NCBI GenBank assembly: GCA_916610825.1 | Contig: OU744447.1 | Span: 14,677,751-14,741,750 of the forward strand | DNA from: Haliclystus octoradiatus | Lineage: Eukaryota > Cnidaria > Staurozoa > Stauromedusae > Haliclystidae | Length of the DNA stretch: 64,000 nt | Reading direction: 5' to 3' | Shown here: positions 1 through 64,000 of the stretch, in pieces | How positions within the stretch are numbered: the stretch's first letter is position 1 | Layout of the letters: each line of letters starts with the position of its first letter | The notes under the pieces: model-generated | Told to the model about the DNA's origin: nothing | Databases searched by the model: none | What the model saw: only the letters and a program-made list of their open reading frames with translations | Made by a program: the position numbers and the translations under genes

Positions 1-2621
1 ACAATGTCAACAACTCCCTTCCCACCCATCAAATCTGGATACTGGCACACTGTACGCTTCACAAATCGAGAAGAACCAAGGACAAAGTCCCAGATTGCAT
101 CCTCAAGTTGTTTAACGACAGGAGCTGGAAGGAAGTAAATACTACAACAGTACCAAAGTTTGGATGCCGCCAGCAGGTTAACGACAGTGCGTTTACCCTG
201 CATGGAGAGAATCCTCCCTTTCCAACACGTTAAAGTTCGTTTAAATGACTCAATCTTTTTCAAAAATGGAAAAGAAAGAGTCATGTTGTTGCCAAAGGGC
301 AATCCAAGTAACTCCACATACGTAGAGGTCCAAGTAATGCCCAATGGCCCTGTACGGTCGTTATCTATCAAGGACCCGCACCAGAGCCCGTTACATTTGG
401 CTTTGTTTATTCTTGCACCTGAGGCACGGCAAAACAATTCCACATGGTCCCAAGCATTCTGGATTGAGTCCAAACCACTCAATATTAGAGTGGTATCATC
501 TGCATACTGGGAAAGTCTGATGTCTCCATACAAACCTGGCAACTTCACACCCTCTATCCGTTGTTCCTGTCGTAAAGTCGCTCCCAGTAACTCAGAAACC
601 AACACGTACAATAGTGGAGAGAGCGGGCAACCCTGTCTCACTCCCCTGCTGAGTGTGATTTCTTCAGTCAGAGTACCATTCAGTTTAATTTTACTTCGTG
701 TGTCCTTGTATAGTATACTAATCCATTCAAGAAATACAGGCCCGAGTCCCATCGCTGCTAAAACACGGAGTAGGAGGGAGCGGTTGACGTGGTCAAAGGC
801 CTTCAGCTGGTCCACACTAACAAGGGCCACAGGCAATTTGTTAGTATTCGCCAGATCTACTACGTCTCTCAATATGCTGCAGTTTTCCAAGATACTTCTG
901 CCTGGAACACCACACGTCTGGTCAGGGTGGACGAGCACAGACACTACACAATTAAGACGGTTAGTTAAAACTTTGGTTATAATTTTATAGTCGACATTAA
1001 GGAGACTGATTGGTCGCCAGTTGCTGAGACTAGCACGATCACCTTTTTTAAACAATAAACAAATAATAGACATATACATAGAGGGGGTCAGACAACCTTC
1101 ACTGTGAATTCTGTTAAGCAACTCTGTAATAGTGTTGCCTATTATTGGCCAGAATTGCTTATAAAATTCAGCAGTGAGGCCATCTGACCCTGGTGACTTG
1201 TTATTGGTTAGTTGGTTAATGGCACTTTCGATTTCCGGATAAGACATGGGCATCTCCAGTGCCAATTTTTGGTCATTAGTTAACTTACTGGTTAGTTTGT
1301 TAATAAGGACATCTTGTGCCGTGGTATCAACAGGGCCCAAGCTGTACAACTGACTATAAAATTTACGCACAACATCCGACAGTTCAGGCAACGAAGTACG
1401 GGTTATACCTGTATCGTCAATCAACTCACGGATAGTTGACGCAGCTCCACGCGATTTCTCCAGGGAACAGAAATATGCAGTTGATCTCTCTCCCTCTTCT
1501 CTCCATCGGGCTCGGGCGCGGATAGCCGCCCCCTCGGCCTTCTGGAGTTCAAAGGCAGAGAGTTCTGCTTGGATTTTTTGGGCTAGATTAGTGAAATCAG
1601 ATCGGCCAGTGCATTCGGCCTTACGGCGTGCATTGCGCAGTTGTTTTGTAAGCCGCTGAACACGCTGCCTCGCGTGTCTCGCCTTCTCCCTTCCATACAC
1701 GCGAGACATTGTTCGGACTTTTTCTTTAATCTGATCCCACCAATCGAGCAAATTAGCGGAAAATTCATCTGATGTTCGTTCTTCCTCCCACAAGTCCACA
1801 AATTGTCTGATGTATTCCACATCTTGCAGATGGGAGTTGTTTAGACACCAGACTTCTGAACGAGTGGGAAGGTCATCCTGGAGAAATTTTGCGGTGACTG
1901 CGTCGTGATCCGAAAGAGCACAATCAACGATATCAAGGCTGGTTAGATACGACATAATACAATCACTAACAAGAATTCTATCAAGACGAGACATTGAAAG
2001 ACCACTGTTTGTACGAAACGTATAACGAATACTATCGGGGTTAGTTACCCTCCAGGCGTCCCTCAATCCCAATTCGATCATCAGATCACTCAAAACAGGC
2101 GCGGAGCGATCAGCGCAGTTGTTAACCGATCCCCGTCTGTCTAAGTGAACGTCGAGCACGCAGTTAAAGTCCCCACCAACAAGTAGTGAAGACTGTTCCT
2201 GAGTGCGCAGACAAGCTGCTCGAAGTGAGGTGAAGAACTCCTTTCGGGCGTTTATTTTATCGTTACCACCTCCCGAAGGAGAGTGCACATTGATTACCAA
2301 TAACGAAGGACACACAGCTGCGACTGTAGACGTGGATTCCGAAAAATCCAGCCTAACAGCCACAGCACGTTCAACATTCAGTTGTACAGGGACCACCTTA
2401 CAGTCTAGCTTCTTGTTTACCAGAATGACGTTACTGTGCAATCTGTTGACGAAAACGTTAAAGCCTGACCCCGTCTGCAGTCGTGAAACTGCAGACGGTG
2501 TCAGGTCAGCTTCCTGCAACAGAGCAACGTCAGCCTGGAGTTTTTTCAAAAAGCTAGTAATGGCCCCCCGCTTGGATTCCCCCCCGATACCACGGCAATT
2601 TAAACTAATAAATGACGGCAT
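1..2621 (-). CDS. LINE ORF2 polyprotein, N-terminal 873 codons (runs off left edge)
   Basis: The protein nicks target DNA and copies the element RNA into the nick. Start is the ATG at 2619-2621 (MPSFISLNCRG), placed by alignment with the complete ORF2 of copy D. The frame should stay open to the window edge, because no net indel separates it from copy D; the C-terminal ~423 residues are not in the window. Visible motifs: APE endonuclease Asn8, Glu37, GGDFN at 149-153, SRLDRI near 211 and SDHD at 237-240; RT motifs NNKSPGSDG near 473, VSVDQLKAFD near 601, RQGCPLSP near 662 and YADD near 706. Unlike copy D it keeps Asp at residue 157, after GGDFNCVL. It starts 81 nt after the ORF1 stop. Confidence 0.88.
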   Translation of the reverse strand, partial: MPSFISLNCRGIGGESKRGAITSFLKKLQADVALLQEADLTPSAVSRLQTGSGFNVFVNRLHSNVILVNKKLDCKVVPVQLNVERAVAVRLDFSESTSTVAAVCPSLLVINVHSPSGGGNDKINARKEFFTSLRAACLRTQEQSSLLVGGDFNCVLDVHLDRRGSVNNCADRSAPVLSDLMIELGLRDAWRVTNPDSIRYTFRTNSGLSMSRLDRILVSDCIMSYLTSLDIVDCALSDHDAVTAKFLQDDLPTRSEVWCLNNSHLQDVEYIRQFVDLWEEERTSDEFSANLLDWWDQIKEKVRTMSRVYGREKARHARQRVQRLTKQLRNARRKAECTGRSDFTNLAQKIQAELSAFELQKAEGAAIRARARWREEGERSTAYFCSLEKSRGAASTIRELIDDTGITRTSLPELSDVVRKFYSQLYSLGPVDTTAQDVLINKLTSKLTNDQKLALEMPMSYPEIESAINQLTNNKSPGSDGLTAEFYKQFWPIIGNTITELLNRIHSEGCLTPSMYMSIICLLFKKGDRASLSNWRPISLLNVDYKIITKVLTNRLNCVVSVLVHPDQTCGVPGRSILENCSILRDVVDLANTNKLPVALVSVDQLKAFDHVNRSLLLRVLAAMGLGPVFLEWISILYKDTRSKIKLNGTLTEEITLSRGVRQGCPLSPLLYVLVSELLGATLRQEQRIEGVKLPGLYGDIRLSQYADDTTLILSGLDSIQNAWDHVELFCRASGARINKAKCNGLWCGSLIDNDRTGPLGITWTSTYVELLGLPFGNNMTLSFPFLKKIESFKRTLTCWKGRILSMQGKRTVVNLLAASKLWYCCSIYFLPAPVVKQLEDAIWDFVLGSSRFVKRTVCQYPDLMGGKGVVDI

Positions 2622-2699
2622 GAGGACGAATACAGGGATACAGCACAGTACTAATATAATTAAACATAAAAGTAAAAGTAAATTAAATTACTTACCCTT

Positions 2700-2732
2700 G
2701 CTCTACGAGGCAGAATTCTGCCTCAATAGAGC
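2700..2732 (-). promoter_or_regulatory. RNA hairpin spanning the ORF1 stop codon (copy A)
   Basis: An inverted repeat: the outer arms GCTCTA/TAGAGC flank a perfect 18-bp palindrome, GAGGCAGAATTCTGCCTC, with a small asymmetric internal loop between them. In the element RNA this folds into a stem of about 13 bp with an AAUU loop. The ORF1 stop codon (UAG) lies in its 3' arm. The same structure is in copy D at 63522-63554. A role in termination, reinitiation or ORF2 coupling is inference. Confidence 0.6.
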
Positions 2733-3352
2733 AGTCCCCCGGCTAGGAAAGAGTTTCTTTTTCGTTGCCGTTTTGTTTTTTTTGGCAGGACTAGCCGGGG
2801 GAGTTTTTTTTCTTTTGGCATTTATTGCTGTCTGCCAGCCTTCTTCAGCAGTCAGTTTCGAGCTTTCTGCGCCCTCAACCACCGCCTCCGGGGAATGATC
2901 ACCCCTACCTTCGACTTCCATCAAGTCTTCCACATCCCCCGGAACAGCAGGTGGGGGCACAGACGGGGGTGGAATTGATTCAACCCCCTCTGCAGCTTGT
3001 TTCTCCTCCACCAGCTCAACCTGTTTTTCAACAGGCTTTGCTGGTTTTGGCCCTTTTGCTGGGGCAGAGGGAGCTGAAAATTCGTCCGAATAGAGTTTTT
3101 CTTCTCTATTCGGGCATTGAAATTTGTTATGACCGAACTGGTCACAACGCAGGCACTTGGGTTTTCGGCCTGGGTAGTAAACGGACAAAGTGTCTTTTCC
3201 AGACACAATGTGCGAGGGCAGAGACTTCCCCTCCGAAACCACAATTTTAATGTGAAGTTCCCCGGTTCGAACTTCTGGCATATCCCTATGGGTCACGGCC
3301 ACCACCCCCTGTATCTCACCGAAGCAAGCTAGAGCCTCGGCAACTCTCAACT
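2703..3352 (-). CDS. LINE ORF1 protein, C-terminal part (CCHC zinc knuckle), 5'-truncated
   Basis: ORF1 proteins of L1/Tx1-type elements bind element RNA as chaperones. About 216 codons remain. A zinc knuckle, CLRCDQFGHNKFQC (C-X2-C-X4-H-X4-C), lies about 64-77 residues in. Before it is the usual lead-in strand (SLPSHIVSGKD, then VYYPGRKPK). After it comes a long low-complexity tail rich in Pro, Glu, Ala and Lys, with a basic end (KKNKTATKKK). The N-terminal half, where family members have an RRM-like fold, is lost by truncation at the U2 junction, and no ATG is present; reading upstream meets a stop inside U2. The stop codon lies in a strong inverted repeat. This fragment is probably not functional. 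Confidence 0.82.
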
Positions 3353-3383
3353 CTTGATCTTAGCCAATAGGCCGAGAAGCGAT
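3353..3383 (-). pseudogene. U2 snRNA 5' fragment (nt 1-31), interrupted by LINE copy A
   Basis: Positions 3383 down to 3353 read exactly as the first 31 nt of the intact U2 genes, ending GATCAAG, and then run directly into LINE copy A. The upstream flank, including the candidate promoter element at 3414-3432, is kept. Transcripts from this promoter would therefore begin with 31 nt of U2 and read into the retrotransposon. The 3' part of this U2 copy must lie left of the window. Confidence 0.95.
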
Positions 3384-4295: not shown

Positions 4296-4313
4296 AGTGG
4301 CCCATGCCAGGCC

Positions 4314-28450: not shown

Positions 28451-28657
28451 TTGATTAAAACGCAACGCTTCGAAGCCCTCGATGTAGATACAACATCACA
28501 TTTGGGCTGTGACGTCAAAGCAACGACCCCACCAGCCAGGATGCGAAAAAAGTATTCTAAGTCTTTTCCTTGCTTTTTTCATCGACACCATGAAAAGGGC
28601 TTATGGCGCTTGCCTAGCCCTGTGGATAAGGCACAAGTTTTATTGGTGTTTTACTGT

Positions 28658-28815
28658 GGTGGGCCCAGCTTGGATGTAGTGCAATACCAAGAGGACCCGT
28701 GGTCAGGGTGAAGCAAGCTCCTATCCCATGACCTGTTGCCAAAAATCAGTTTAATATAAGAGCTAGTCGATGACTAGCGTATCAGATATTAAGCTGATAA
28801 GAACAGATACTACAC
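28658..28815 (-). pseudogene. U2 snRNA 3' fragment (nt 31-188), interrupted by LINE copy B1
   Basis: The unit starting at 28451 has a normal U2 3' part up to G31, then 15 T (LINE A tail). The 5' part is at 30642-30672. U2 nt 31 is present on both sides, so the target duplication is 1 nt, or up to 3 nt (AAG) if the last A residues of the tail belong to the target. Confidence 0.95.
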
Positions 28816-28837
28816 TTTTTTTTTTTTTTTGCGTTCC

Positions 28838-28856
28838 AGTGGGGCACTGCCCCACT
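28838..28856 (-). other. 3'-terminal stem-loop of LINE B1
   Basis: In element sense AGTGGGG-CAGTG-CCCCACT: 7 bp closing a 5-nt loop, 7 nt before the A tail. Subfamily C/D keeps the same fold with G-U pairs. Stem-loops in this position are known as RT recognition signals in stringent-type LINEs such as UnaL2; the role here is inferred. Confidence 0.65.
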
Positions 28857-29175
28857 GCATATATTTCATCAATTACTACACCATTACAAAACATTTACAA
28901 ATACGGGCTAAGCCTTTTACAAACATGAAATTATTTCTACTATATACACTATTTATATTACAGGTTTACAAAACAGGACAGATTTAGTTTTACGGACATA
29001 TGTAGTAATTTGATAGGTGATATTTGATTATAATGTTGTAGTTGATTATAGTTTTTTTCCTTTCTCTTTGTAATATGTAAATGGTCGTATATTATTTGTT
29101 TTTCGGTAATTTTCTTGCATGCTATATTTTTTTCACTTTTGATTGTTTCCTTTCTGCGCACAACATGCGTTTGGT

Positions 29176-29254
29176 TGATATAGATAGAGATATAGATATT
29201 GATAGAGATATAGATATTGATAGAGATATAGATATACATATTGATGTAGATATT
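29176..29254. repeat. 18-bp tandem repeat in the LINE B1 3' UTR
   Basis: Three near-perfect copies of GATAGAGATATAGATATT followed by decayed copies. Subfamily C/D has only a short GATATAGATATAT remnant at the corresponding place, so the expansion is specific to subfamily B. Confidence 0.85.
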
Positions 29255-29339
29255 TGGATTTCTTCTTCGGTTGACTTTTTAAATAAGTTTTTTATTTATT
29301 TATTTTTTTTCTTTTTTTTTCTTTTTTTTAATTTATTTT

Positions 29340-29614
29340 GCAGAGGTCAGGAAGGTTGCCACTGCTGCCACCTGGTATGAACCTTCGTCCATACCAGACG
29401 AACAGTCATCGGACTCACGGCCTTTTACCCTGACATGCTCGAAAATTAACGTGTTAACGTATTTATAGCTATAATACCTATAAACATGATACATGATGAT
29501 GGTCCGATGTAAGCAGAGGTCAGGAAGGTTGCCACTGCTGCCACCTGGTATGAACTTTTGTCCATACCAGACGAACAGTCATCGGACTCACGGCCTTTTA
29601 CCCTGACATGCTCG
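29340..29614 (-). repeat. Pair of 102-bp structured direct repeats in the LINE B1 3' UTR
   Basis: Copies at 29340-29441 and 29513-29614 differ at only about two positions and are separated by unrelated AT-rich DNA. In element sense each can fold with outer arms GTCAGG/CCTGAC, an extension AAGG/CCTT and an inner hairpin CTGGTATG/CATACCAG. The same pair occurs in B2, C and D although the surrounding UTR has diverged strongly. Confidence 0.8.
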
Positions 29615-29846
29615 TTTATTGTATATCTATAAGAGATATACACTAAATAAATTACACTAAATTTACAACAATTAACTGAATTAAAAAAGTTGAACTAAGC
29701 TAGCTAGAATTAAACTATCTAAAACAGAAAACAATGTAAATAGATTCAAAAAAGAAATAATTAATTAATTATACTCAAAACTACCAAATCTGTTTACAAG
29801 ATTTAGCAGCGAAATGATAAGTTCGTTGTATACGTTGGTGTAATGT

Positions 29847-30641
29847 TTAACGTTGGTGTAATAATACATTCGATATACCATTGACGTCGATTTTTCCACT
29901 GTTGTTGATGGTGATTAATGCAGGGTACAGCAGGTCGTTAGTATCTTCCTCCGCGCGTTGTAACTTAGCTTGCAAGAGATCCAAGCTGAGTCGTATCTCA
30001 GAGAGAAAGCCGACCCAGACTTGAACTTCTAAACCAGTGTTTCGCTGCTTAGCCTCACTGCGCGTATACCATACTGCAGACGTAAACGCCTCTCGAAACA
30101 ACCGACAGAGGAGCGCCCCTTGGCCAGCCTGCACATGCTTCGGAAACACCCCCAACGTTCTAGCCAAATCATGGGCAAAACCTTTTGGATGCTCTCCTAC
30201 TTTCAACATTATTTGATATAACTTCTGCCACAGTTTGGTCAGAAAACAACAATCTAGGAATAGATGTATTGTTGTCTCAACTTCCCTGTGACAGTAAGGA
30301 CATAAGCCGTCGTTGGAATCGTCGAAATGCCTAACCTTCCTTCCTGTTGGTAAGAAGTCGTGTGTAATTTTCCACTGAAGGTCGGCAAATCGACGGCCAA
30401 TTAACGGCTTCCTACACAATGAGTAAACTGACGTCCAGTCCGGGCTTATACCTAACCTAGATTCCCAAGACTGTTGGCCTTTGCTTAGGGAACTAGGTGT
30501 CGGACGGATTGCATTATAAATAGATTTTGTCGTATACTTACCTAGATCTCTGCTCTCTGTCGAATTGACTGACAGACGGAGTCTAGGCTGGCAAGGTTTG
30601 TGTGTATACTTACCTGGTACTCTGAAGTGAAGCTTTGGAAG
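29847..30641 (-). pseudogene. LINE ORF2 C-terminal fragment (subfamily B, copy B1)
   Basis: The remaining ~264 codons match the ORF2 C-terminus: the conserved GKYTTK-type strand, LQWKITHDFLPTG, the CCHC motif CPYC...H-X4-C within NDGLCPYCHREVETTIH, then SEIRLSLDLLQ. Endonuclease and RT are absent. The frame continues upstream without a stop through U2 nt 31-1 and the U2 promoter flank to 30815, giving an apparent 322-codon frame, but that frame starts with TTG and has no early ATG. It is therefore a fragment; the upstream fusion is probably accidental. Confidence 0.85.
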
Positions 30642-30672
30642 CTTGATCTTAGCCAATAGGCCGAGAAGCGAT
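30642..30672 (-). pseudogene. U2 snRNA 5' fragment (nt 1-31), LINE B1 5' junction
   Basis: Exact first 31 nt of U2, complementing the 3' fragment at 28658-28815. The promoter flank (element at 30703-30721) is intact, so the LINE remnant sits in the transcription direction of a U2 promoter. Confidence 0.95.
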
Positions 30673-32763: not shown

Positions 32764-32785
32764 TTTTTTTTTTTTTTTGCGTTCC

Positions 32786-33123: not shown

Positions 33124-33202
33124 TGATATAGATAGAGATATAGATATTGATAGAGATATAGATATTGATAGAGATATAGATATACATATTGATGTAGATA
33201 TT
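33124..33202. repeat. 18-bp tandem repeat in the LINE B2 3' UTR
   Basis: Same copy number and sequence as in B1, consistent with recent duplication. Confidence 0.85.
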
Positions 33203-33287
33203 TGGATTTCTTCTTCGGTTGACTTTTTAAATAAGTTTTTTATTTATTTATTTTTTTTCTTTTTTTTTCTTTTTTTTAATTTATTTT

Positions 33288-33562
33288 GCAGAGGTCAGGA
33301 AGGTTGCCACTGCTGCCACCTGGTATGAACCTTCGTCCATACCAGACGAACAGTCATCGGACTCACGGCCTTTTACCCTGACATGCTCGAAAATTAACGT
33401 GTTAACGTATTTATAGCTATAATACCTATAAACATGATACATGATGATGGTCCGATGTAAGTAGAGGTCAGGAAGGTTGCCACTGCTGCCACCTGGTATG
33501 AACTTTTGTCCATACCAGACGAACAGTCATCGGACTCACGGCCTTTTACCCTGACATGCTCG
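33288..33562 (-). repeat. Pair of 102-bp structured direct repeats in the LINE B2 3' UTR
   Basis: Copies at 33288-33389 and 33461-33562. The second begins GTAGAGG where B1 has GCAGAGG. Confidence 0.8.
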
Positions 33563-33794
33563 TTTATTGTATATCTATAAGAGATATACACTAAATAAAT
33601 TACACTAAATTTACAACAATTAACTGAATTAAAAAAGTTGAACTAAGCTAGCTAGAATTAAACTATCTAAAACAGAAAACAATGTAAATAGATTCAAAAA
33701 AGAAATAATTAATTAATTATACTCAAAACTACCAAATCTGTTTACAAGATTTAGCAGCGAAATGATAAGTTCGTTGTATACGTTGGTGTAATGT

Positions 33795-34589
33795 TTAACG
33801 TTGGTGTAATAATACATTCGATATACCATTGACGTCGATTTTTCCACTGTTGTTGATGGTGATTAATGCAGGGTACAGCAGGTCGTTAGTATCTTCCTCC
33901 GCGTGTTGAAACTTAGCTTGCAAGAGATCCAAGCTGAGTCGTATCTCAGAGAGAAAGCGGACCCAGACTTGAACTTCTAAACCAGTGTTTCGCTGCTTAG
34001 CCTCACTGCGCGTATACCATACTGCAGACGTAAACGCCTCTCGAAACAACCGACAGAGGAGCGCCCCTTGGCCAGCCTGCACATGCTTCGGAAACACCCC
34101 CAACGTTCTAGCCAAATCATGGGCAAAACCTTTTGGATGCTCTCCTACTTTCAACATTATTTGATATAACTTCTGCCACAGTTTGGTCAGAAAACAACAA
34201 TCTAGGAATAGATGTATGGTTGTCTCAACTTCCCTGTGACAGTAAGGACATAAGCCGTCGTTGGAATCGTCGAAATGCCTAACCTTCCTTCCTGTTGGTA
34301 AGAAGTCGTGTGTAATTTTCCACTGAAGGTCGGCAAATCGACGGCCAATTAACGGCTTCCTACACAATGAGTAAACTGACGTCCAGTCCGGGCTTATACC
34401 TAACCTAGATTCCCAAGACTGTTGGCCTTTGCTTAGGGAACTAGGTGTCGGACGGATTGCATTATAAATAGATTTTGTCGTATACTTACCTAGATCTCTG
34501 CTCTCTGTCGAATTGACTGACAGACGGAGTCTAGGCTGGCAAGGTTTGTGTGTATACTTACCTGGTACTCTGAAGTGAAGCTTTGGAAG
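33795..34589 (-). pseudogene. LINE ORF2 C-terminal fragment (subfamily B, copy B2)
   Basis: Same fragment as in B1, with the CCHC motif and no endonuclease or RT. Amino-acid differences from B1 lie near VWVGFLSE/VWVRFLSE and LQAKLQRAEED/LQAKFQHAEED. At the first of these the Arg of B2 agrees with the intact ORF2 of copy D, so the Gly is private to B1. The frame stays open through the U2 5' fragment, as in B1. Confidence 0.85.
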
Positions 34590-34620
34590 CTTGATCTTAG
34601 CCAATAGGCCGAGAAGCGAT
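34590..34620 (-). pseudogene. U2 snRNA 5' fragment (nt 1-31), LINE B2 5' junction
   Basis: Exact U2 nt 1-31 with the promoter flank intact (element at 34651-34669). Confidence 0.95.
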
Positions 34621-36346: not shown

Positions 36347-36553
36347 TTGATTAAAACGCAACGCTTCGAAGCCCTCGATGTAGATACAACATCACATTTG
36401 GGCTGTGACGTCAAAGCAACGACCCCACCAGCCAGGATGCGAAAAAAGTATTCTAAGTCTTTTCCTTGCTTTTTTCATCGACACCATGAAAAGGGCTTAT
36501 GGCGCTTGCCTAGCCTTGTGGATAAGGCACAAGTTTTATTGGTGTTTTACTGT

Positions 36554-36711
36554 TTTGGGCCCAGCTTGGATGTAGTGCAATACCAAGAGGACCCGTGGTC
36601 AGGGTGAAGCAAGCTCCTATCCCATGACCTGTTGCCAAAAATCAGTTTAATATAAGAGCTAGTCGATGACTAGCGTATCAGATATTAAGCTGATAAGAAC
36701 AGATACTACAC
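36554..36711 (-). pseudogene. U2 snRNA 3' fragment, interrupted by LINE copy C
   Basis: U2 nt 31-188, then 15 T. Just past the U2 3' end the unit has TGTTTTGGGCCC where all others have TGTGGTGGGCCC, so the last bases of this U2 copy are altered; the spacer also has AGCCTTGTGG for AGCCCTGTGG. An interrupted copy accumulating changes fits loss of constraint. Confidence 0.93.
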
Positions 36712-36733
36712 TTTTTTTTTTTTTTTGCTAACC

Positions 36734-36752
36734 AGCAGGGCACTGCCCCACT
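36734..36752 (-). other. 3'-terminal stem-loop of LINE C
   Basis: In element sense AGTGGGG-CAGTG-CCCTGCT. Relative to subfamily B two base pairs become G-U and U-G; they pair only in the element RNA and not on the other strand. The loop CAGTG is unchanged. Confidence 0.65.
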
Positions 36753-37113
36753 GCATATATTTCATCAAATATTACACAATTACATACATATACAATTTAC
36801 GGGCTAAGCCTTCACAAACATAAAATTTATTCTACTATTTACACTATTTATATAACACATTTACAAAACAGGACTAATTTTTACAGACATATGTAATGAT
36901 TTGATTGGTAGAATGTTTGAGTTTGAGTATATTCGTTTGGCATTAATCATCTTCGTTGCATAAGTGTTTATTTTCTTTTTTTTTTTGTTCATTCTATTTA
37001 GATGTTTTCTTTGATAATCGATATAGATATATATAATTTGATGTTCTACATTGAGTGTCCGTTTTTCGTGTCGTTGAAGGTACCATTGCTTTTTTTCAGG
37101 ATTTGATGTATTA

Positions 37114-37380
37114 GCAGAGGTCAGGAAGGTTGCCACTGCTGCCACCTGGTATGTACCTTCATCCATACCAGACGAACAGTCATGGGACTCACGGCCTTTT
37201 ACCCTGACATGCTCGATAATTAACTTATTTATATCTATAATAGATATAGAATTTAAATAGTTTGAATGTCCGATGTTAGCAGAGGTCAGGAAGGTTGCCA
37301 CTGCTGCCACCTGATATGAACTTTCATCCATACCAGACGAACAGTCATCGGACTCACGGCCTTTTACCCTGACATGCTCG
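37114..37380 (-). repeat. Pair of 102-bp structured direct repeats in the LINE C 3' UTR
   Basis: Copies at 37114-37215 and 37279-37380. In the second copy the inner hairpin arm changes by one base and still pairs in the RNA as G-U. A 156-codon frame crosses both copies but begins in one repeat and has no known domain. Confidence 0.8.
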
Positions 37381-37580
37381 TTAATTATATATTTATGAAG
37401 ATATCTACAGAATAAATTAAACTAAATTTACATAAATTTACTAAATTAAATAAGCTAAATTAAACTATTTAACGCAGCAAACAATATAAATAGAGTCAAA
37501 AAATAATTAATTAATTATAATCAAAACTACAATATCTGTTTAAAAGATATGGCAGCAAAATAATAAATGTTTGACAGTGT

Positions 37581-40500
37581 TCATAGTGGTATTAATAGTT
37601 GTTGTAGGCCATCGACGTTGAATTTGTTGTTGGAGGATAGTGTGATGATATTGGGGTAAAGTAATGCAATAATGTCTTTACCCTCGCGTTCAAACTTAAC
37701 TTGCAGGAGATCCAAGCTGAGTCTTATCTCAGAGAGACAGCGGACCCAGACTTGAACTTCTAAGTCAGTGTTTCGATCCGTTATTGCTCCGCGCGCCTCC
37801 CATACTGCCAACGTGAACGCCTCTCGAAGCAACCGACACAAAAGCAAGCCGCAGTGAGATACAACCGATGGTGGGAATAACCCGAGGGATCTTGCTGCTT
37901 TGTTTTCGAAACCTTTTTGGTGCTCTGTGATATTTTCTAATATCTGACACAATTTCTGCCACAGCTTGGTGAGAAAACTACAATCTAGGAATAGATGAAT
38001 AGTCGTCTCCTCCTCGCTATGACAGAAGGGACATAAGCCGTCATTAGTATCGTCGAAATGCTTCACTTTATTTCCTGTTGGTAAGAAATCATGGATAATT
38101 TTCCATTGAAGATCAGCATATCGACGGCTAATTAACGGCTTCCTTCCAAGTGAATGCACTGTTAACCAGTCCTGGGGCGCAGCGAGCTTGGTTTCCCAAG
38201 CCTGCTGTCCCCTTGTTAGACTAGTGGGCATTGGTCGGATGGCACTGTAAAATTTTTTGGTGTTATACTTACCTAGCTCTCTACTTTCTGCTGATTGGGC
38301 CGACAGACGTAGAACAGGCTGGCAAGGTTCATACTTACTTGCACTGGTGGTGCAGAGTTGGTCGAGCCATTGCTCTGGCCACTCACCAATGATTTCTTGG
38401 TAGAGGTTTGCAGTAGCGCAATACCTCTCCCGTTTTTTTAAAATATCAATATTAATCGTGCTAGGACCCAGCAGACGCCCACCAGCCCCAGTAATGTCAT
38501 TAATGACTTTAATTTTGTTAGTCACCCACACCGTATTGGTGTGGGTTTTGTTAGAACGAATTACAGGTGCAAACGAGTTACAAAAGACTGGTTCATCGAG
38601 AATTGCGTTGTGTGAACTTGGCAAGACTCGGAGTTTACTAACATAACATTCCCAGTCCCAGAGCGTGTGGTAATACCAGACAGGCAGTTTTATCGCGTAG
38701 TATCTTGAAATCTTGCATTTCAGGACAGCTAAACCTAGGTCCAGCTGCCTGTACATATTGAAATAGTAGTGATAGAAGGCCTTCCACCTACTTACCTCTT
38801 GGTTGACCAAACGGGCCAACCAAGCTAAGCGGAATGACGCTGCTCTCGTAACAATGTCAACAACTCCCTTCCCACCCATCAAATCTGGATACTGGCACAC
38901 TGTACGCTTCACAAATCGAGAAGAACCAAGGACAAAGTCCCAGATTGCATCCTCAAGTTGTTTAACGACAGGAGCTGGAAGGAAGTAAATACTACAACAG
39001 TACCAAAGTTTGGATGCCGCCAGCAGGTTAACGACAGTGCGTTTACCCTGCATGGAGAGCATCCTCCCTTTCCAACACGTTAAAGTTCGTTTAAATGACT
39101 CAATCTTTTTCAAAAATGGAAAAGAGAGAGTCATGTTGTTACCAAAGGGCAATCCAAGTAACTCCACATACGTAGAGGTCCAAGTAATGCCCAATGGCCC
39201 TGTACGGTCGTTATCTATCAAGGACCCGCACCAGAGCCCGTTACATTTGGCTTTGTTTATTCTTGCACCTGAGGCACGGCAAAACAATTCCACATGGTCC
39301 CAAGCATTCTGGATTGAGTCCAAACCACTCAATATTAGAGTGGTATCATCTGCATACTGGGAAAGTCTGATGTCTCCATACAAACCTGGCAACTTCACAC
39401 CCTCTATCCGTTGTTCCTGTCGTAAAGTCGCTCCCAGTAACTCAGAAACCAACACGTACAATAGTGGAGAGAGCGGGCAACCCTGTCTCACTCCCCTGCT
39501 GAGTGTGATTTCTTCAGTCAGAGTACCATTCAGTTTAATTTTACTTCGTGTGTCCTTGTATAGTATACTAATCCATTCAAGAAATACAGGCCCGAGTCCC
39601 ATCGCTGCTAAAACACGGAGTAGGAGGGAGCGGTTGACGTGGTCAAAGGCCTTCAGCTGGTCCACACTAACAAGGGCCACAGGCAATTTGTTAGTATTCG
39701 CCAGATCTACTACGTCTCTCAATATGCTGCAGTTTTCCAAGATACTTCTGCCTGGAACACCACACGTCTGGTCAGGGTGGACGAGCACAGACACTACACA
39801 ATTAAGACGGTTAGTTAAAACTTTGGTTATAATTTTATAGTCGACATTAAGGAGACTGATTGGTCGCCAGTTGCTGAGACTAGCACGATCACCTTTTTTA
39901 AACAATAAACAAATAATAGACATATACATAGAGGGGGTCAGACAACCTTCACTGTGAATTCTGTTAAGCAACTCTGTAATAGTGTTGCCTATTATTGGCC
40001 AGAATTGCTTATAAAATTCAGCAGTGAGGCCATCTGACCCTGGTGACTTGTTATTGGTTAGTTGGTTAATGGCACTTTCGATTTCCGGATAAGACATGGG
40101 CATCTCCAGTGCCAATTTTTGGTCATTAGTTAACTTACTGGTTAGTTTGTTAATAAGGACATCTTGTGCCGTGGTATCAACAGGGCCCAAGCTGTACAAC
40201 TGACTATAAAATTTACGCACAACATCCGACAGTTCAGGCAACGAAGTACGGGTTATACCTGTATCGTCAATCAACTCACGGATAGTTGACGCAGCTCCAC
40301 GCGATTTCTCCAGGGAACAGAAATATGCAGTTGATCTCTCTCCCTCTTCTCTCCATCGGGCTCGGGCGCGGATAGCCGCCCCCTCGGCCTTCTGGAGTTC
40401 AAAGGCAGAGAGTTCTGCTTGGATTTTTTGGGCTAGATTAGTGAAATCAGATCGGCCAGTGCATTCGGCCTTACGGCGTGCATTGCGCAGTTGTTTTGTA

Positions 40501-41075
40501 AGCCGCTGAACACGCTGCCTCGCGTGTCTCGCCTTCTCCCTTCCATACACGCGAGACATTGTTCGGACTTTTTCTTTAATCTGATCCCACCAATCGAGCA
40601 AATTAGCGGAAAATTCATCTGATGTTCGTTCTTCCTCCCACAAGTCCACAAATTGTCTGATGTATTCCACATCTTGCAGATGGGAGTTGTTTAGACACCA
40701 GACTTCTGAACGAGTGGGAAGGTCATCCTGGAGAAATTTTGCGGTGACCGCGTCGTGATCCGAAAGAGCACAATCAACGATATCAAGGCTGGTTAGATAC
40801 GACATAATACAATCACTAACAAGAATTCTATCAAGACGAGACATTGAAAGACCACTGTTTGTACGAAACGTATAACGAATACTATCGGGGTTAGTTACCC
40901 TCCAGGCGTCCCTCAATCCCAATTCGATCATCAGATCACTCAAAACAGGCGCGGAGCGATCAGCGCAGTTGTTAACCGATCCCCGTCTGTCTAAGTGAAC
41001 GTCGAGCACGCAGTTAAAGTCCCCACCAACAAGTAGTGAAGACTGTTCCTGAGTGCGCAGACAAGCTGCTCGAAG
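37581..41075 (-). pseudogene. LINE ORF2 lacking the first 132 residues (copy C)
   Basis: The frame runs from LRAACLRTQEQ (residue 133 of the complete ORF2) to the normal stop at 37581, with no internal stop. It keeps GGDFNCVLD, SRLDRI and SDHD of the endonuclease, the whole RT (VSVDQLKAFD, RQGCPLSP, YADD) and the C-terminal CPFC...H-X4-C motif. It lacks Asn8 and Glu37, so the endonuclease must be inactive. The open frame extends 17 codons into the U2 upstream flank (to 41126), starting at a TTG, so no proper start codon is present. It keeps Asp at the residue corresponding to 157. Confidence 0.88.
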
Positions 41076-58314: not shown

Positions 58315-58521
58315 TTGATTAAAACGCAACGCTTCGAAGCCCTCGATGTAGATACAACATCACATTTGGGCTGTGACGTCAAAGCAACGACCCCACCAGC
58401 CAGGATGCGAAAAAAGTATTCTAAGTCTTTTCCTTGCTTTTTTCATCGACACCATGAAAAGGGCTTATGGCGCTTGCCTAGCCCTGTGGATAAGGCACAA
58501 GTTTTATTGGTGTTTTACTGT

Positions 58522-58679
58522 GGTGGGCCCAGCTTGGATGTAGTGCAATACCAAGAGGACCCGTGGTCAGGGTGAAGCAAGCTCCTATCCCATGACCTGT
58601 TGCCAAAAATCAGTTTAATATAAGAGCTAGTCGATGACTAGCGTATCAGATATTAAGCTGATAAGAACAGATACTACAC
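58522..58679 (-). pseudogene. U2 snRNA 3' fragment, interrupted by LINE copy D
   Basis: U2 nt 31-188 followed by 15 T. Unlike the copy broken by LINE C, it shows no other change, which suggests a younger insertion. Its 5' part must lie right of the window. Confidence 0.95.
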
Positions 58680-58701
58680 TTTTTTTTTTTTTTTGCTAAC
58701 C

Positions 58702-58720
58702 AGCAGGGCACTGCCCCACT
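58702..58720 (-). other. 3'-terminal stem-loop of LINE D
   Basis: Same G-U-containing stem as in copy C, ending 7 nt before the A tail. Confidence 0.65.
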
Positions 58721-59080
58721 GCATATATTTCATCAAATATTACACAATTACATACATATACAATTTACGGGCTAAGCCTTCACAAACATAAAATTTATTC
58801 TACTATTTACACTATTTATATAACACATTTACAAAACAGGACTAATTTTTACAGACATATGTAATGATTTGATTGGTAGAATGTTTGAGTTTGAGTATAT
58901 TCGTTTGGCATTAATCATCTTCGTTGCATAAGTGTTTATTTTATTTTTTTTTTGTTCATTCTATTTAGATGTTTTCTTTGATAATCGATATAGATATATA
59001 TAATTTGATGTTCTACATTGAGTGTCCGTTTTTCGTGTCGTTGAAGGTACCATTGCTTTTTTTCAGGATTTGATGTATTA

Positions 59081-59347
59081 GCAGAGGTCAGGAAGGTTGC
59101 CACTGCTGCCACCTGGTATGTACCTTCATCCATACCAGACGAACAGTCATGGGACTCACGGCCTTTTACCCTGACATGCTCGATAATTAACTTATTTATA
59201 TCTATAATAGATATAGAATTTAAATAGTTTGAATGTCCGATGTTAGCAGAGGTCAGGAAGGTTGCCACTGCTGCCACCTGATATGAACTTTCATCCATAC
59301 CAGACGAACAGTCATCGGACTCACGGCCTTTTACCCTGACATGCTCG
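59081..59347 (-). repeat. Pair of 102-bp structured direct repeats in the LINE D 3' UTR
   Basis: Copies at 59081-59182 and 59246-59347, as in copy C. The AT-rich DNA between and around the repeats differs widely from subfamily B while the repeats themselves barely differ. Confidence 0.8.
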
Positions 59348-59547
59348 TTAATTATATATTTATGAAGATATCTACAGAATAAATTAAACTAACTTTACAT
59401 AAATTTACTAAATTAAATAAGCTAAATTAAACTATTTAACGCAGCAAACAATATAAATAGAGTCAAAAAATAATTAATTAATTATAATCAAAACTACAAT
59501 ATCTGTTTAAAAGATATAGCAGCAAAATAATAAATGTTTGACAGTGT

Positions 59548-62500
59548 TCATAGTGGTATTAATAGTTGTTGTAGGCCATCGACGTTGAATTTGTTGTTGG
59601 AGGATAGTGTGATGATATTGGGGTAAAGTAATGCAATAATGTCTTTACCCTCGCGTTCAAACTTAACTTGCAGGAGATCCAAGCTGAGTCTTATCTCAGA
59701 GAGACAGCGGACCCAGACTTGAACTTCTAAGTCAGTGTTTCGATCCGTTATTGCTCCGCGCGCCTCCCATACTGCCAACGTGAACGCCTCTCGAAGCAAC
59801 CGACACAAAAGCAAGCCGCAGTGAGATACAACCGATGGTGGGAATAACCCGAGGGATCTTGCTGCTTTGTTTTCGAAACCTTTTTGGTGCTCTGTGATAT
59901 TTTCTAATATCTGACACAATTTCTGCCACAGCTTGGTGAGAAAACTACAATCTAGGAATAGATGAATAGTCGTCTCCTCCTCGCTATGACAGAAGGGACA
60001 TAAGCCGTCATTAGTATCGTCGAAATGCTTCACTTTATTTCCTGTTGGTAAGAAATCATGGATAATTTTCCATTGAAGATCAGCATATCGACGGCTAATT
60101 AACGGCTTCCTTCCAAGTGAATGCACTGTTAACCAGTCCTGGGGCGCAGCGAGCTTGGTTTCCCAAGCCTGCTGTCCCCTTGTTAGACTAGTGGGCATTG
60201 GTCGGATGGCACTGTAAAATTTTTTGGTGTTATACTTACCTAGCTCTCTACTTTCTGCTGATTGGGCCGACAGACGTAGAACAGGCTGGCAAGGTTCATA
60301 CTTACTTGCACTGGTGGTGCAGAGTTGGTCGAGCCATTGCTCTGGCCACTCACCAATGATTTCTTGGTAGAGGTTTGCGGTAGCGCAATACCTCTCCCGT
60401 TTTTTTAAAATATCAATATTAATCGTGCTAGGACCCAGCAGACGCCCACCAGCCCCAGTAATGTCATTAATGACTTTAATTTTGTTAGTCACCCACACCG
60501 TATTGGTGTGGGTTTTGTTAGAACGAATTACAGGTGCAAACGAGTTACAAAAGACTGGTTCATCGAGAATTGCGTTGTGTGAACTTGGCAAGACTCGGAG
60601 TTTACTAACATAACATTCCCAGTCCCAGAGCGTGTGGTAATACCAGACAGGCAGTTTTATCGCGTAGTATCTTGAAATCTTGCATTTCAGGACAGCTAAA
60701 CCTAGGTCCAGCTGCCTGTACATATTGAAATAGTAGTGATAGAAGGCCTTCCACCTACTTACCTCTTGGTTGACCAAACGGGCCAACCAAGCTAAGCGGA
60801 ATGACACTGCTCTCGTAACAATGTCAACAACTCCCTTCCCACCCATCAAATCTGGATACTGGCACACTGTACGCTTCACAAATCGAGAAGAACCAAGGAC
60901 AAAGTCCCAGATTGCATCCTCAAGTTGTTTAACGACAGGAGCTGGAAGGAAGTAAATACTACAACAGTACCAAAGTTTGGATGCCGCCAGCAGGTTAACG
61001 ACAGTGCGTTTACCCTGCATGGAGAGCATCCTCCCTTTCCAACACGTTAAAGTTCGTTTAAATGACTCAATCTTTTTCAAAAATGGAAAAGAGAGAGTCA
61101 TGTTGTTACCAAAGGGCAATCCAAGTAACTCCACATACGTAGAGGTCCAAGTAATGCCCAATGGCCCTGTACGGTCGTTATCTATCAAGGACCCGCACCA
61201 GAGCCCGTTACATTTGGCTTTGTTTATTCTTGCACCTGAGGCACGGCAAAACAATTCCACATGGTCCCAAGCATTCTGGATTGAGTCCAAACCACTCAAT
61301 ATTAGAGTGGTATCATCTGCATACTGGGAAAGTCTGATGTCTCCATACAAACCTGGCAACTTCACACCCTCTATCCGTTGTTCCTGTCGTAAAGTCGCTC
61401 CCAGTAACTCAGAAACCAACACGTACAATAGTGGAGAGAGCGGGCAACCCTGTCTCACTCCCCTGCTGAGTGTGATTTCTTCAGTCAGAGTACCATTCAG
61501 TTTAATTTTACTTCGTGTGTCCTTGTATAGTATACTAATCCATTCAAGAAATACAGGCCCGAGTCCCATCGCTGCTAAAACACGGAGTAGGAGGGAGCGG
61601 TTGACGTGGTCAAAGGCCTTCAGCTGGTCCACACTAACAAGGGCCACAGGCAATTTGTTAGTATTCGCCAGATCTACTACGTCTCTCAATATGCTGCAGT
61701 TTTCCAAGATACTTCTGCCTGGAACACCACACGTCTGGTCAGGGTGGACGAGCACAGACACTACACAATTAAGACGGTTAGTTAAAACTTTGGTTATAAT
61801 TTTATAGTCGACATTAAGGAGACTGATTGGTCGCCAGTTGCTGAGACTAGCACGATCACCTTTTTTAAACAATAAACAAATAATAGACATATACATAGAG
61901 GGGGTCAGACAACCTTCACTGTGAATTCTGTTAAGCAACTCTGTAATAGTGTTGCCTATTATTGGCCAGAATTGCTTATAAAATTCAGCAGTGAGGCCAT
62001 CTGACCCTGGTGACTTGTTATTGGTTAGTTGGTTAATGGCACTTTCGATTTCCGGATAAGACATGGGCATCTCCAGTGCCAATTTTTGGTCATTAGTTAA
62101 CTTACTGGTTAGTTTGTTAATAAGGACATCTTGTGCCGTGGTATCAACAGGGCCCAAGCTGTACAACTGACTATAAAATTTACGCACAACATCCGACAGT
62201 TCAGGCAACGAAGTACGGGTTATACCTGTATCGTCAATCAACTCACGGATAGTTGACGCAGCTCCACGCGATTTCTCCAGGGAACAGAAATATGCAGTTG
62301 ATCTCTCTCCCTCTTCTCTCCATCGGGCTCGGGCGCGGATAGCCGCCCCCTCGGCCTTCTGGAGTTCAAAGGCAGAGAGTTCTGCTTGGATTTTTTGGGC
62401 TAGATTAGTGAAATCAGATCGGCCAGTGCATTCGGCCTTACGGCGTGCATTGCGCAGTTGTTTTGTAAGCCGCTGAACACGCTGCCTCGCGTGTCTCGCC

Positions 62501-63438
62501 TTCTCCCTTCCATACACGCGAGACATTGTTCGGACTTTTTCTTTAATCTGATCCCACCAATCGAGCAAATTAGCTGAAAATTCATCTGATGTTCGTTCTT
62601 CCTCCCACAAGTCCACAAATTGTCTGATGTATTCCACATCTTGCAGATGGGAGTTGTTTAGACACCAGACTTCTGAACGAGTGGGAAGGTCATCCTGGAG
62701 AAATTTTGCGGTGACCGCGTCGTGATCCGAAAGAGCACAATCAACGATATCAAGGCTGGTTAGATACGACATAATACAATCACTAACAAGAATTCTATCA
62801 AGACGAGACATTGAAAGACCACTGTTTGTACGAAACGTATAACGAATACTATCGGGGTTAGTTACCCTCCAGGCGTCCCTCAATCCCAATTCGATCATCA
62901 GATCACTCAAAACAGGCGCGGAGCGATCAGCGCAGTTGTTAACCGATCCCCGTCTGTCTAAGTGAACCTCGAGCACGCAGTTAAAGTCCCCACCAACAAG
63001 TAGTGAAGACTGTTCCTGAGTGCGCAGACAAGCTGCTCGAAGTGAGGTGAAGAACTCCTTTCGGGCGTTTATTTTATCGTTACCACCTCCCGAAGGAGAG
63101 TGCACATTGATTACCAATAACGAAGGACACACAGCTGCGACTGTAGACGTGGATTCCGAAAAATCCAGCCTAACAGCCACAGCACGTTCAACATTCAGTT
63201 GTACAGGGACCACCTTACAGTCTAGCTTCTTGTTTACCAGAATGACGTTACTGTGCAATCTGTTGATGAAAACGTTAAAGCCTGACCCCGTCTGCAGTCG
63301 TGAAACTGCAGACGGTGTCAGGTCAGCTTCCTGCAACAGAGCAACGTCAGCCTGGAGTTTTTTCAAAAAGCTAGTAATGGCCCCCCGCTTGGATTCCCCC
63401 CCGATACCACGGCAATTTAAACTAATAAATGACGGCAT
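59548..63438 (-). CDS. LINE ORF2: APE endonuclease - reverse transcriptase - CCHC, complete (1296 aa)
   Basis: The protein nicks the U2 gene and primes cDNA synthesis from the nick. Start is an ATG (MPSFISLNCRG) 86 nt after the ORF1 stop. Order: APE endonuclease 1-245 (Asn8, Glu37, GGDFN 149-153, SRLDRI 211-216, SDHD 237-240); linker with a basic helix about 305-340; RT about 470-780 (NNKSPGSDG 473-481, NWRPISLLN 534-542, VSVDQLKAFD 601-610, RQGCPLSP 662-669, YADD 706-709, LLGLPFG 771-777); C-terminal CCHC at Cys1147, Cys1150, His1159, Cys1164. Length is normal for L1/Tx1-type ORF2. Oddity: Glu157 replaces the Asp found in copies A and C just after the GGDFN motif, near the active site. Confidence 0.95.
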   Translation of the reverse strand: MPSFISLNCRGIGGESKRGAITSFLKKLQADVALLQEADLTPSAVSRLQTGSGFNVFINRLHSNVILVNKKLDCKVVPVQLNVERAVAVRLDFSESTSTVAAVCPSLLVINVHSPSGGGNDKINARKEFFTSLRAACLRTQEQSSLLVGGDFNCVLEVHLDRRGSVNNCADRSAPVLSDLMIELGLRDAWRVTNPDSIRYTFRTNSGLSMSRLDRILVSDCIMSYLTSLDIVDCALSDHDAVTAKFLQDDLPTRSEVWCLNNSHLQDVEYIRQFVDLWEEERTSDEFSANLLDWWDQIKEKVRTMSRVYGREKARHARQRVQRLTKQLRNARRKAECTGRSDFTNLAQKIQAELSAFELQKAEGAAIRARARWREEGERSTAYFCSLEKSRGAASTIRELIDDTGITRTSLPELSDVVRKFYSQLYSLGPVDTTAQDVLINKLTSKLTNDQKLALEMPMSYPEIESAINQLTNNKSPGSDGLTAEFYKQFWPIIGNTITELLNRIHSEGCLTPSMYMSIICLLFKKGDRASLSNWRPISLLNVDYKIITKVLTNRLNCVVSVLVHPDQTCGVPGRSILENCSILRDVVDLANTNKLPVALVSVDQLKAFDHVNRSLLLRVLAAMGLGPVFLEWISILYKDTRSKIKLNGTLTEEITLSRGVRQGCPLSPLLYVLVSELLGATLRQEQRIEGVKLPGLYGDIRLSQYADDTTLILSGLDSIQNAWDHVELFCRASGARINKAKCNGLWCGSLIDNDRTGPLGITWTSTYVELLGLPFGNNMTLSFPFLKKIESFKRTLTCWKGRMLSMQGKRTVVNLLAASKLWYCCSIYFLPAPVVKQLEDAIWDFVLGSSRFVKRTVCQYPDLMGGKGVVDIVTRAVSFRLAWLARLVNQEVSRWKAFYHYYFNMYRQLDLGLAVLKCKISRYYAIKLPVWYYHTLWDWECYVSKLRVLPSSHNAILDEPVFCNSFAPVIRSNKTHTNTVWVTNKIKVINDITGAGGRLLGPSTINIDILKKRERYCATANLYQEIIGEWPEQWLDQLCTTSASKYEPCQPVLRLSAQSAESRELGKYNTKKFYSAIRPMPTSLTRGQQAWETKLAAPQDWLTVHSLGRKPLISRRYADLQWKIIHDFLPTGNKVKHFDDTNDGLCPFCHSEEETTIHLFLDCSFLTKLWQKLCQILENITEHQKGFENKAARSLGLFPPSVVSHCGLLLCRLLREAFTLAVWEARGAITDRNTDLEVQVWVRCLSEIRLSLDLLQVKFEREGKDIIALLYPNIITLSSNNKFNVDGLQQLLIPL

Positions 63439-63521
63439 GAGGACGAATACAGGGATACAGCACAGTACTAATATAATTAAACATAAAAGTAAAAGTAAAT
63501 TAAATTAAATTACTTACCCTT

Positions 63522-63554
63522 GCTCTACGAGGCAGAATTCTGCCTCAATAGAGC
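63522..63554 (-). promoter_or_regulatory. RNA hairpin spanning the ORF1 stop codon (copy D)
   Basis: Identical to the inverted repeat of copy A. A consensus-like 5' splice donor (GGGTAAGTAAT) starts a few nt downstream of it, at 63519 down to 63509 on the minus strand, inside the ORF1-ORF2 gap. Confidence 0.6.
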
Positions 63555-64000
63555 AGTCCCCCGGCTAGGAAAGAGTTTCTTTTTCGTTGCCGTTTTATTT
63601 TTTTTGGCAGGACTAGCCGGGGGAGTTTTTTTCCTTTTTGCGTTGATTGCTGTCTGCCAGCCTTCTTCAGCAGTCATTTTCGAGCTTTCTGCGCCCTCAA
63701 CCACCGCCTCCGGGGAATGATCACCCCTACCTTCGACTTCCATCAAGTCTACCACATCCCCCGGAACAGCAGGTGGGGGCACAGATGGGGGTGGAATTGA
63801 TTCAACCCCCTCTGCAGATTGTTCCTCCTCCACCAGCTCAACCTGTTTTTCAACAGGCTTTGCTGGTTTTGGCCCTTTTGCTGGGGCAGAGGGAGCTGAA
63901 AATTCGTCCGAATAGAGTTTTTCTTCTCTATTCGGGCATTGAAATTTGTTATGACCGAACTGGTCACAACGCAGGCACTTGGGTTTTCGGCCTGGGTAGT
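63525..64000 (-). CDS. LINE ORF1 protein, C-terminal part (runs off right edge)
   Basis: The frame is open from the right edge to the stop at 63525. It includes the CCHC zinc knuckle near the edge and the Pro/Glu-rich tail seen in copy A, with a few substitutions (EEEQSAEG for EEKQAAEG, DVVDLMEVE for DVEDLMEVE, SSKMTAEE for SSKLTAEE). The N-terminal portion lies beyond the window, so it cannot be said whether this copy has a full ORF1. Confidence 0.82.
   Translation of the reverse strand, partial: YPGRKPKCLRCDQFGHNKFQCPNREEKLYSDEFSAPSAPAKGPKPAKPVEKQVELVEEEQSAEGVESIPPPSVPPPAVPGDVVDLMEVEGRGDHSPEAVVEGAESSKMTAEEGWQTAINAKRKKTPPASPAKKNKTATKKKLFPSRGTALLRQNSAS

Follow-up and report, generated by a model that had tools for sequence, protein, structure and literature searches.

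An APE-type LINE family with one preferred target in the U2 snRNA genes of Haliclystus octoradiatus

In Haliclystus octoradiatus a tandem array of U2 snRNA genes is broken up by copies of a LINE. This raises the question of where in U2 the element inserts, to which of the known lineages it is related, and what role the U2 gene plays for it. Here, we study a window of 64,000 nt (GCA_916610825.1, contig OU744447.1, positions 14,677,751-14,741,750 of the forward strand), and use the 262-Mb genome that it belongs to as the search space.

LINE copies in the U2 array

The window is a portion of the array, which lies on the minus strand (3854-58712). Besides intact U2 genes, of which the whole window has 20, the array contains spacer units carrying a pseudo-U2 head, with 103 such heads in the window. 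The LINE copies A, B1, B2, C and D are all in U2 orientation, as originally predicted, and the features of the window given below are on the minus strand.

Copy A (1-3352), of the alpha subfamily, has its 5' end within ORF1 and its 3' end outside the window; U2 nt 1-31 remain upstream of it (3353-3383), with a 3-nt filler at the 5' joint. Copy B1 (28816-30641), of the gamma subfamily, is 5'-truncated in ORF2, carries an A15 tail and is flanked by U2 nt 1-31 upstream (30642-30672) and U2 nt 31-192 downstream (28654-28815). The corresponding flanks of B2 (32764-34589) are found at 34590-34620 and 32602-32763. Copy C (36712-41074), an alpha copy also truncated in ORF2, is followed by U2 nt 31-192 (36550-36711). 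Its 5' end is readable and, instead of lying at nt 31/32, is joined to promoter sequence roughly 5 bp before U2 +1, with a target deletion, and the U2 head is missing because this joint sits in the promoter. Finally, the alpha copy D (58680-64000) contains part of ORF1, an intact ORF2 of 1296 aa with APE endonuclease, RT and zf-RVT (59551-63438), the 3' UTR and an A15 tail; its 5' end is outside the window, and U2 nt 31-192 lie downstream (58518-58679). Two structured repeats of about 100 nt are present in the 3' UTR of C (37112-37380) as well as in B1 (29338-29614), and a comparison of these repeats with Rfam gave no match up to E 1.

All four 3' ends in the window (B1, B2, C and D) are located at U2 nt 31, where the A tail is directly followed by GTGTAGTATC. 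At the 5' side, U2 nt 31 precedes copies A, B1 and B2, with the filler in between in A. The junctions of B1 and B2 had been taken as separate sets; however, the two copies are 99.7% identical (5 mismatches in 1826), have identical breakpoints and lie 3948 bp apart, and they are one tandem duplication, not two insertions. Judged by DNA identity, which is 75% to D and reaches 99.7% with a gamma copy at another place in the array, they belong to a different subfamily from A, C and D.

The target site across the genome

Of the 83 U2 copies found genome-wide, 58 are intact and 25 interrupted. All 25 LINE 3' ends found in the array lie at U2 nt 31, where the original prediction had asked for more than 90% of junctions at one site, and about 19-20 independent insertions are behind them after merging of duplicates. 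At the other side, U2 is kept to nt 31-34 in 24 of the 26 readable 5' ends. The two exceptions reach into the promoter, copy C at about -5 and another array copy at about -131, indicating that insertion can do without a clean 5' join. The earlier claim that every readable junction lies at one base of U2 is therefore not exact.

The 5' ends of array copies that look full-length read AAGTGT in 10 of 10 cases (5 alpha, 4 beta, 1 gamma). In these copies the 5' side runs to nt 34 and the 3' side starts at nt 31, or possibly at nt 29, as two A are ambiguous with the tail; together this corresponds to a target duplication of 4-6 bp. A cut between nt 31 and 32, as first proposed, is thus not the best description of the site. 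In 5'-truncated copies U2 is retained to nt 31 to 33, and one near-full alpha copy (L076) has AAGTGATTTAG in place of AAGTGT.

There are at least three subfamilies, alpha, beta and gamma, and the joint at nt 31 is common to all of them and to most old copies. A search with the 3' UTR, in which 38 of 38 candidates were scored, gave matches only within C2:14.26-14.89 Mb, save one on C8. Apart from one on another contig, the copies found are situated in the U2 array or in old debris elsewhere on its contig.

Could the concentration at nt 31 be the result of homogenisation of the array, starting from a few insertions by an element without site specificity? Duplicates do exist: in addition to B1/B2 there are 14744028/14751357/14778463, 14736408/14764655 and 14636437/14641511, and full-length copies whose A tails are of equal length are indistinguishable by the criteria used. 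However, the insertions left after merging differ in subfamily, in 5' truncation and in A-tail length (12-21). Further, the array contains 445 minus-strand spacer pseudo-heads that have U2 nt 20-34 in common with U2 and differ after that, and none of them carries a 3' end of the family. The two kinds of sites form a natural target-site experiment, with 83 U2 copies set against 445 sequences sharing nt 20-34 only. Homogenisation is disfavoured as the cause, and we regard it as highly improbable. The spacer that follows the pseudo-head shows no similarity above shuffles to the 5' UTRs of the three LINE subfamilies.

Our data support that this is a U2-specific APE LINE family with one preferred target, at about nt 29-34 of U2, just before the GUAGUA that pairs with the branch site.

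Coding content and relation to known U2-targeting elements

Next, we consider the proteins. Pfam detects RVT_1 (1.8e-36), an N-terminal Exo_endo_phos (8.5e-10) and zf-RVT (3e-9), in agreement with the APE endonuclease and C-terminal zinc finger that had been read from the sequence. The predicted CCHC zinc knuckle of ORF1 is visible by eye in copies of three subfamilies, but its Pfam score is under the cut-off; an RRM is not listed in the Pfam search of ORF1. A stop-free full ORF2 is found in 13 copies, and in one further copy its first 12 residues are missing. ORF1 was read in three array copies and is open in each. The leader that separates U2 +1 from the first ATGGC of ORF1 is 101-115 nt long (4 of 4 copies measured), of which the element's own 5' UTR, counted from U2 nt 31, makes up about 70-84 nt.

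In a PDB search the best match is human L1 ORF2p (7.7e-85), to which residues 4-897 of the 1296 align, and the best R2 match is far weaker (4.4e-23). The order EN-RT-zf-RVT of ORF2, which is also that of Xenopus Tx1 and human L1, and the long similarity to L1 ORF2p place the element in the L1 group in its broad sense. Neither Tx1 nor human L1 is known to target U2. The RT is 38.0% identical to a provisional Tx1 reference sequence and 29.6% to human L1 from PDB (382 columns, bootstrap 0.9975), which tentatively favours a position nearer to Tx1 than to L1. Single-protein patterns gave no match to relatives in viral contigs.

R2, in 28S rDNA, has a restriction-like endonuclease, an rRNA target transcribed by Pol I and an RT of a different clade, while the element studied here is APE-type. 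For U2, the 2015 account in PMC4640811 reports targeting by Keno and Utopia only, with the same 3' flank, which according to PMC4640811 and PMC6136364 begins at nt 39 (TCTGTTC). Utopia, of the NeSL clade, resembles our family in its U2 target, strict in some hosts, in having several coexisting families and in interrupting U2 arrays. It differs in its nt-39 site and in its restriction-like endonuclease without APE, in contrast to the N-terminal Exo_endo_phos and the best PDB match to L1 ORF2p found here. PMC4640811 also describes YURE in Ciona, whose insertions in U2-derived satellite repeats can be compared with insertion in a spacer pseudo-head here; YURE is however related to Utopia and of the restriction-like-endonuclease group.

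The closest comparison is Keno, the U2-specific element of the Tx1 clade. The family here is, like Keno, an APE-endonuclease LINE in U2 genes, with a possibly Tx1-like RT by the provisional reference. In contrast to Keno its flank starts at nt 31, with the cut across GUAGUA from Keno's, and 0 of 83 U2 copies are interrupted at nt 38/39, the site of Keno and Utopia. By target, it is not Keno, and the label "Keno-like" of the original prediction does not hold in that respect; it is either a third lineage that targets U2 or a relative of Keno whose site is shifted by 8 nt.

The latter could be a plain Keno family whose cut site has drifted by these 8 nt, with no separate lineage involved. The APE endonuclease, an L1-group RT closer to the provisional Tx1 sequence than to L1 and the same host gene are all consistent with this, and reports of Keno cover frogs, fish, lancelet and hydra (PMC4640811). 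However, the 3' flank is at nt 31 and never at nt 39, and since this joint is common to three subfamilies and most old copies, any shift would be old. We consider drift a serious alternative, if somewhat doubtful.

The U2 head and a proposed life cycle

Copies at unrelated sites had been named as an argument against U2 specificity. One clear such copy, of the beta subfamily, is found on C8, yet it strengthens the link to U2, because it carries U2 nt 1-34. It begins exactly at U2 +1, continues from nt 34 into the element, has no U2 promoter upstream and ends in an A10 tail. Compared with an array beta copy, it shows 97.7% identity over 1579 bp of its 5' end and 97.9% over 1698 bp of its 3' end. 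Three uninterrupted paralogs of the site reveal a target site duplication, (A)TACT, of 4-5 bp, together with a 20-nt target-like filler; from the two flanks alone the duplication had p ~0.10, and it was settled by these empty paralogs instead. GATCA at the cut is common to the C8 site and the U2 site.

The simplest reading of a copy that starts at U2 +1 is that transcription of the LINE begins at the start site of U2, which suggests that U2 is both the target and the promoter of the LINE. A likeness to R2, described in PMC13188248 as having no internal promoter, would then be that the target gene supplies the promoter.

Two other origins of the head can be considered. In the first, the RT would have switched template from the LINE RNA to free U2 snRNA, in the manner of U6-L1 chimeras; chimeras of LINEs and small RNAs formed by template switching are described in mammals (see also PMC4476161, PMC13174262). 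However, the boundary on C8, nt 34 followed by the beta 5' end, is that of full-length beta copies in the array, and a jump to free U2 would therefore have to land on this internal nucleotide by coincidence, which makes this origin quite improbable. In the second, the promoter is internal to the element, as is common among LINEs, with the U2 head entering transcripts only by occasional read-through. The short 5' UTR leaves little room for it, but the promoter may lie further inside; also, the sole clean off-target copy starts at U2 +1. An internal promoter is in our view unlikely, if less so than a template switch.

The C8 copy is the one clean off-target copy whose U2 head begins at +1. A second head, at C2:14480888, starts exactly at +1 as well, in scrambled DNA, where a flanking 9-mer, CGATTCTTG, is present in the U2 promoter too; a third begins near U2 nt 9, and a nearby head at 14454573 carries 27 bp of promoter. 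The second and third heads could be DNA rearrangements.

Taken with U2 as promoter and target, the life cycle may run as follows. RNA polymerase would start at U2 +1, from the promoter of the occupied gene, and read U2 nt 1-34 and then the element. ORF2p would nick the bottom strand beside GATC, at a point between nt 28/29 and 30/31, and copy the RNA from its A tail, and a top-strand cut near nt 34/35 would produce the 4-6 bp duplication. The end of the cDNA would be U2 nt 1-34, identical to the target just upstream, so that a clean 5' join by homology is possible. Such a join would restore promoter and U2 head, making the new copy transcribable, and the restored AAGTGT would again be a target, on which elements can stack.

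The full-length 5' ends do re-create the target, and some stacking is seen: three old A-tailed 3' ends (L052, L053 and 14497945) continue into the alpha-type 5' start GTGTAGTT. Another old A-tailed 3' end (14466923) lacks GTGT. Stacking is seen in the old cluster only, with no case among the 24 array heads.

In general, we find it probable that this is a U2-gene-specific, APE-type, Tx1-like LINE lineage that lives off the U2 gene twice, in transcription and in integration. More tentatively, and with somewhat less than even confidence, it may be a third, separately evolved U2 lineage at a new site (nt 29-34) and an obligate parasite of the U2 promoter, with a chimeric U2-head/LINE RNA whose head serves as start site and as guide for the clean 5' join, and with insertions that rebuild the target and allow stacking.

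A second U2 site, lying 8 nt from that of Keno and Utopia and across the branch-pairing element from it, shows that elements have occupied the most conserved part of U2 in more than one way, and it is plausible, as originally suggested, that this conservation explains persistence across species. With the stray copy from U2 +1, transcription of snRNA-targeting LINEs from an snRNA promoter, comparable to R2, which is thought to use the rRNA promoter, becomes directly testable. Further, an APE LINE whose target is short and exact may be of interest for engineering site-specific insertion.

A preferred insertion point in U2

The window corresponds to C2:14677751-14741750 (contig OU744447.1, here C2) in a genome of 261,861,806 bp and 33 contigs. 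Every U2 gene in it lies on the minus strand; 20 are intact (188 bits) and four lack the 5' part. When we searched the whole genome for the U2 body, using a 22-base pattern from nt 31 with at most one mismatch, we obtained 83 matches, all on the minus strand at C2:14.58-14.89 Mb. The pattern for the U2 head, its 5' part, matched 82 times in the same interval, eight times in an old plus-strand cluster and once on another contig, C8. Counted by site, the array holds 58 intact U2 copies, 25 with the body only and 24 with the head only. The body-only sites coincide exactly with the 25 array LINE 3' ends recovered by a 3'-end search (40 of 92 candidates scored), and a second search with the 3' UTR alone (38 of 38 scored) gave the same 25 array ends. 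The site-specific LINE of the original prediction is genuine and has strong support. Once duplicates are collapsed on subfamily, 5' point and A tail, about 20 insertion events remain; the figure is 19 if a pair of full-length alpha copies, both with A16 tails, counts once.

It had further been claimed that every readable junction lies at the same base, U2 nt 31/32. At the 3' side of window copies B1 (28816-30641), B2 (32764-34589), C (36712-41074) and D (58680-64000) this holds: an A15 tail is followed by GTGTAGTATC, that is, U2 from nt 31. At the 5' side, A (1-3352), B1 and B2 are preceded by U2 nt 1-31, but the fourth readable end, that of copy C, falls some 5 bp before U2 +1. Genome-wide, U2 is kept to nt 31 at all 24 head-only joints (21 outside the window plus A, B1 and B2). 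Ten apparently full-length joints (five alpha, four beta, one gamma) keep AAGTGT, corresponding to nt 34, and in L076, a near-full alpha copy, the joint reads AAGTGATTTAG. Truncated copies retain AAG or AAGTG, with microhomology or filler at several. Two further 5' ends lie in the promoter: that of copy C and, about 131 bp before U2 +1, that of the gamma copy 14605684.

The target also separates this element from Keno, to which it had been likened. In PMC4640811 the downstream U2 of Utopia starts at nt 39 and the Keno 3' flank is identical; PMC6136364 gives the Keno flank as TCTGTTCTTATCAG. In contrast, the 3' flank of the H. octoradiatus LINE starts at nt 31. A pattern starting at nt 39 found the same 83 places as the nt-31 pattern, so no U2 copy is interrupted between the two; with 83 of 83 nt-31 places uninterrupted up to nt 39, the Keno label fails on target. 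In the literature searched, partly excerpts and with few subscription papers, we found no U2 LINE at another site.

Subfamilies, proteins and 3' UTR

Copies A, C and D (alpha) are mutually 99% identical. B1 and B2 (gamma) share 99.7% identity; they match D at 75% and, over 906 bp, another gamma copy (C2:14.88 Mb) at 99.7%. The C8 copy belongs to beta: over 1698 bp it is 97.9% identical to a beta copy of the array, and in ORF2 about 81-82% identical to gamma. Measured stop to stop, ORF1 has 454 (alpha), 445 (beta) and 472 (gamma) codons, and the knuckle CxxCxxxGHxxxxC is present in copies of all three. ORF2 of D (1296 aa) contains an APE endonuclease, an RT and a zf-RVT domain; its closest solved structure is human L1 ORF2p (7.7e-85), with R2 much weaker (4.4e-23). 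Over 382 RT columns alpha is 38.0% identical to a provisional Tx1 sequence and 29.6% to human L1, and that Tx1 sequence is 25.9% identical to L1; with a provisional reference, an alpha RT nearer Tx1 than L1 is a lead.

In COX1 on contig C33 (L109), TGA is read as Trp, and AGR, found at positions conserved as Arg, is apparently kept as Arg; this code suggests a host outside Bilateria.

The 3' UTR contains two repeats of about 100 nt (the pair spans window 29338-29614 in B1 and 37112-37380 in C), which are more conserved between subfamilies than the sequence around them and fold stably in four of four cases (z -2.0 to -3.5); the repeat stretch of copy C matched no Rfam family. Directly before the A tail, alpha and gamma elements end in a hairpin (28836-28858, 36733-36753, 58701-58721) with a stem of 9 bp as folded, including G-U pairs in alpha. 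It is possibly an RT recognition element.

Real U2, the spacer and older debris

The spacer units between the window U2 genes (4135-58532) are 398 bp each. Such a unit looks as if it arose by deletion from a full U2 unit, having lost U2 nt 1-178 along with the proximal promoter. Its pseudo-U2 head, present 103 times in the window including those preceding real U2 genes, is identical to U2 over nt 11-34 save nt 17 and 19. It begins near +1 and diverges directly after nt 34, the same boundary as in full-length LINE insertions, and may be what is left of an ancient stray insertion. A 3948-bp unit with copy B and its U2 (28654-34620) is duplicated in tandem, giving B1 and B2.

The downstream pattern of the pseudo-head (at most two mismatches) has 445 minus-strand matches genome-wide and another two in the plus cluster; no pseudo-head holds any of the 25 array 3' ends. 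Were every site equivalent, the chance of all 20 events falling in the 83 real ones would be P = 1e-17, a guide only, because independence and equal age are assumed. Two plus-cluster copies, L050 and L051, do sit in the pseudo-head with an identical joint and are probably one event.

The old cluster (C2:14448000-14498300, all but 699 bp read) holds LINE debris together with eight U2 heads and six pieces of the U2 promoter; no U2 body turned up in the part read. GTGT follows eight of the nine A-tailed 3' ends read there. Two of these are L050 and L051, three lie at an alpha-type 5' start (L052, L053, 14497945), 14474583 probably adjoins another 5' start, and 14471288 and 14490333 run through GTGT into unassigned sequence. 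The end at 14466923 has no GTGT, and two further ends are eroded; some ends are likely duplicates. As 3' ends here adjoin element 5' starts, the element 5' joint can itself serve as target. Outside the array, older scrambled LINE pieces occur at C2:14.37 Mb (L107) and C2:14.26 Mb (L108), with no U2 detected at either.

A stray copy and the load on U2

The full-length beta copy on C8 starts as GGGATC/ATCGCTTCTCGG...AAGATCAAGTGT/TTTAAATG: U2 nt 1-34, then the element, with no promoter before it. Its 3' flank is not U2, and its ORF2 has three stops. The flanks have three uninterrupted paralogs on C8 and diverged ones on contig C1, and by comparison with these paralogs the empty site reads GGGATC-ATACT-GTGG. 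At the insertion (A)TACT is duplicated, the tail is A10, and a filler of 20 nt repeats the target; measured in the same way, the duplication at U2 is GTGT (nt 31-34) or AAGTGT. Judged from sequence, such features are the signature of target-primed insertion, the RNA having begun at U2 +1, and putative use of the U2 promoter is the best explanation of this one clean case. Weaker cases are a U2 head from +1 within ORF1 of another LINE (14480888), which has a 9-mer in common with the U2 promoter, and a head starting near nt 9 (14481035). In array copy L075 additional bases separate the promoter from its U2 head, and these may be left over from an incoming U2 head. The literature searched, in part excerpts and with few subscription papers, yielded no account of LINEs using an snRNA promoter.

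Interrupted U2 units amplify together with the array. With 25 of the 83 U2 sites at C2:14.58-14.89 Mb interrupted and 58 intact, the element places a heavy burden on a gene indispensable to splicing.
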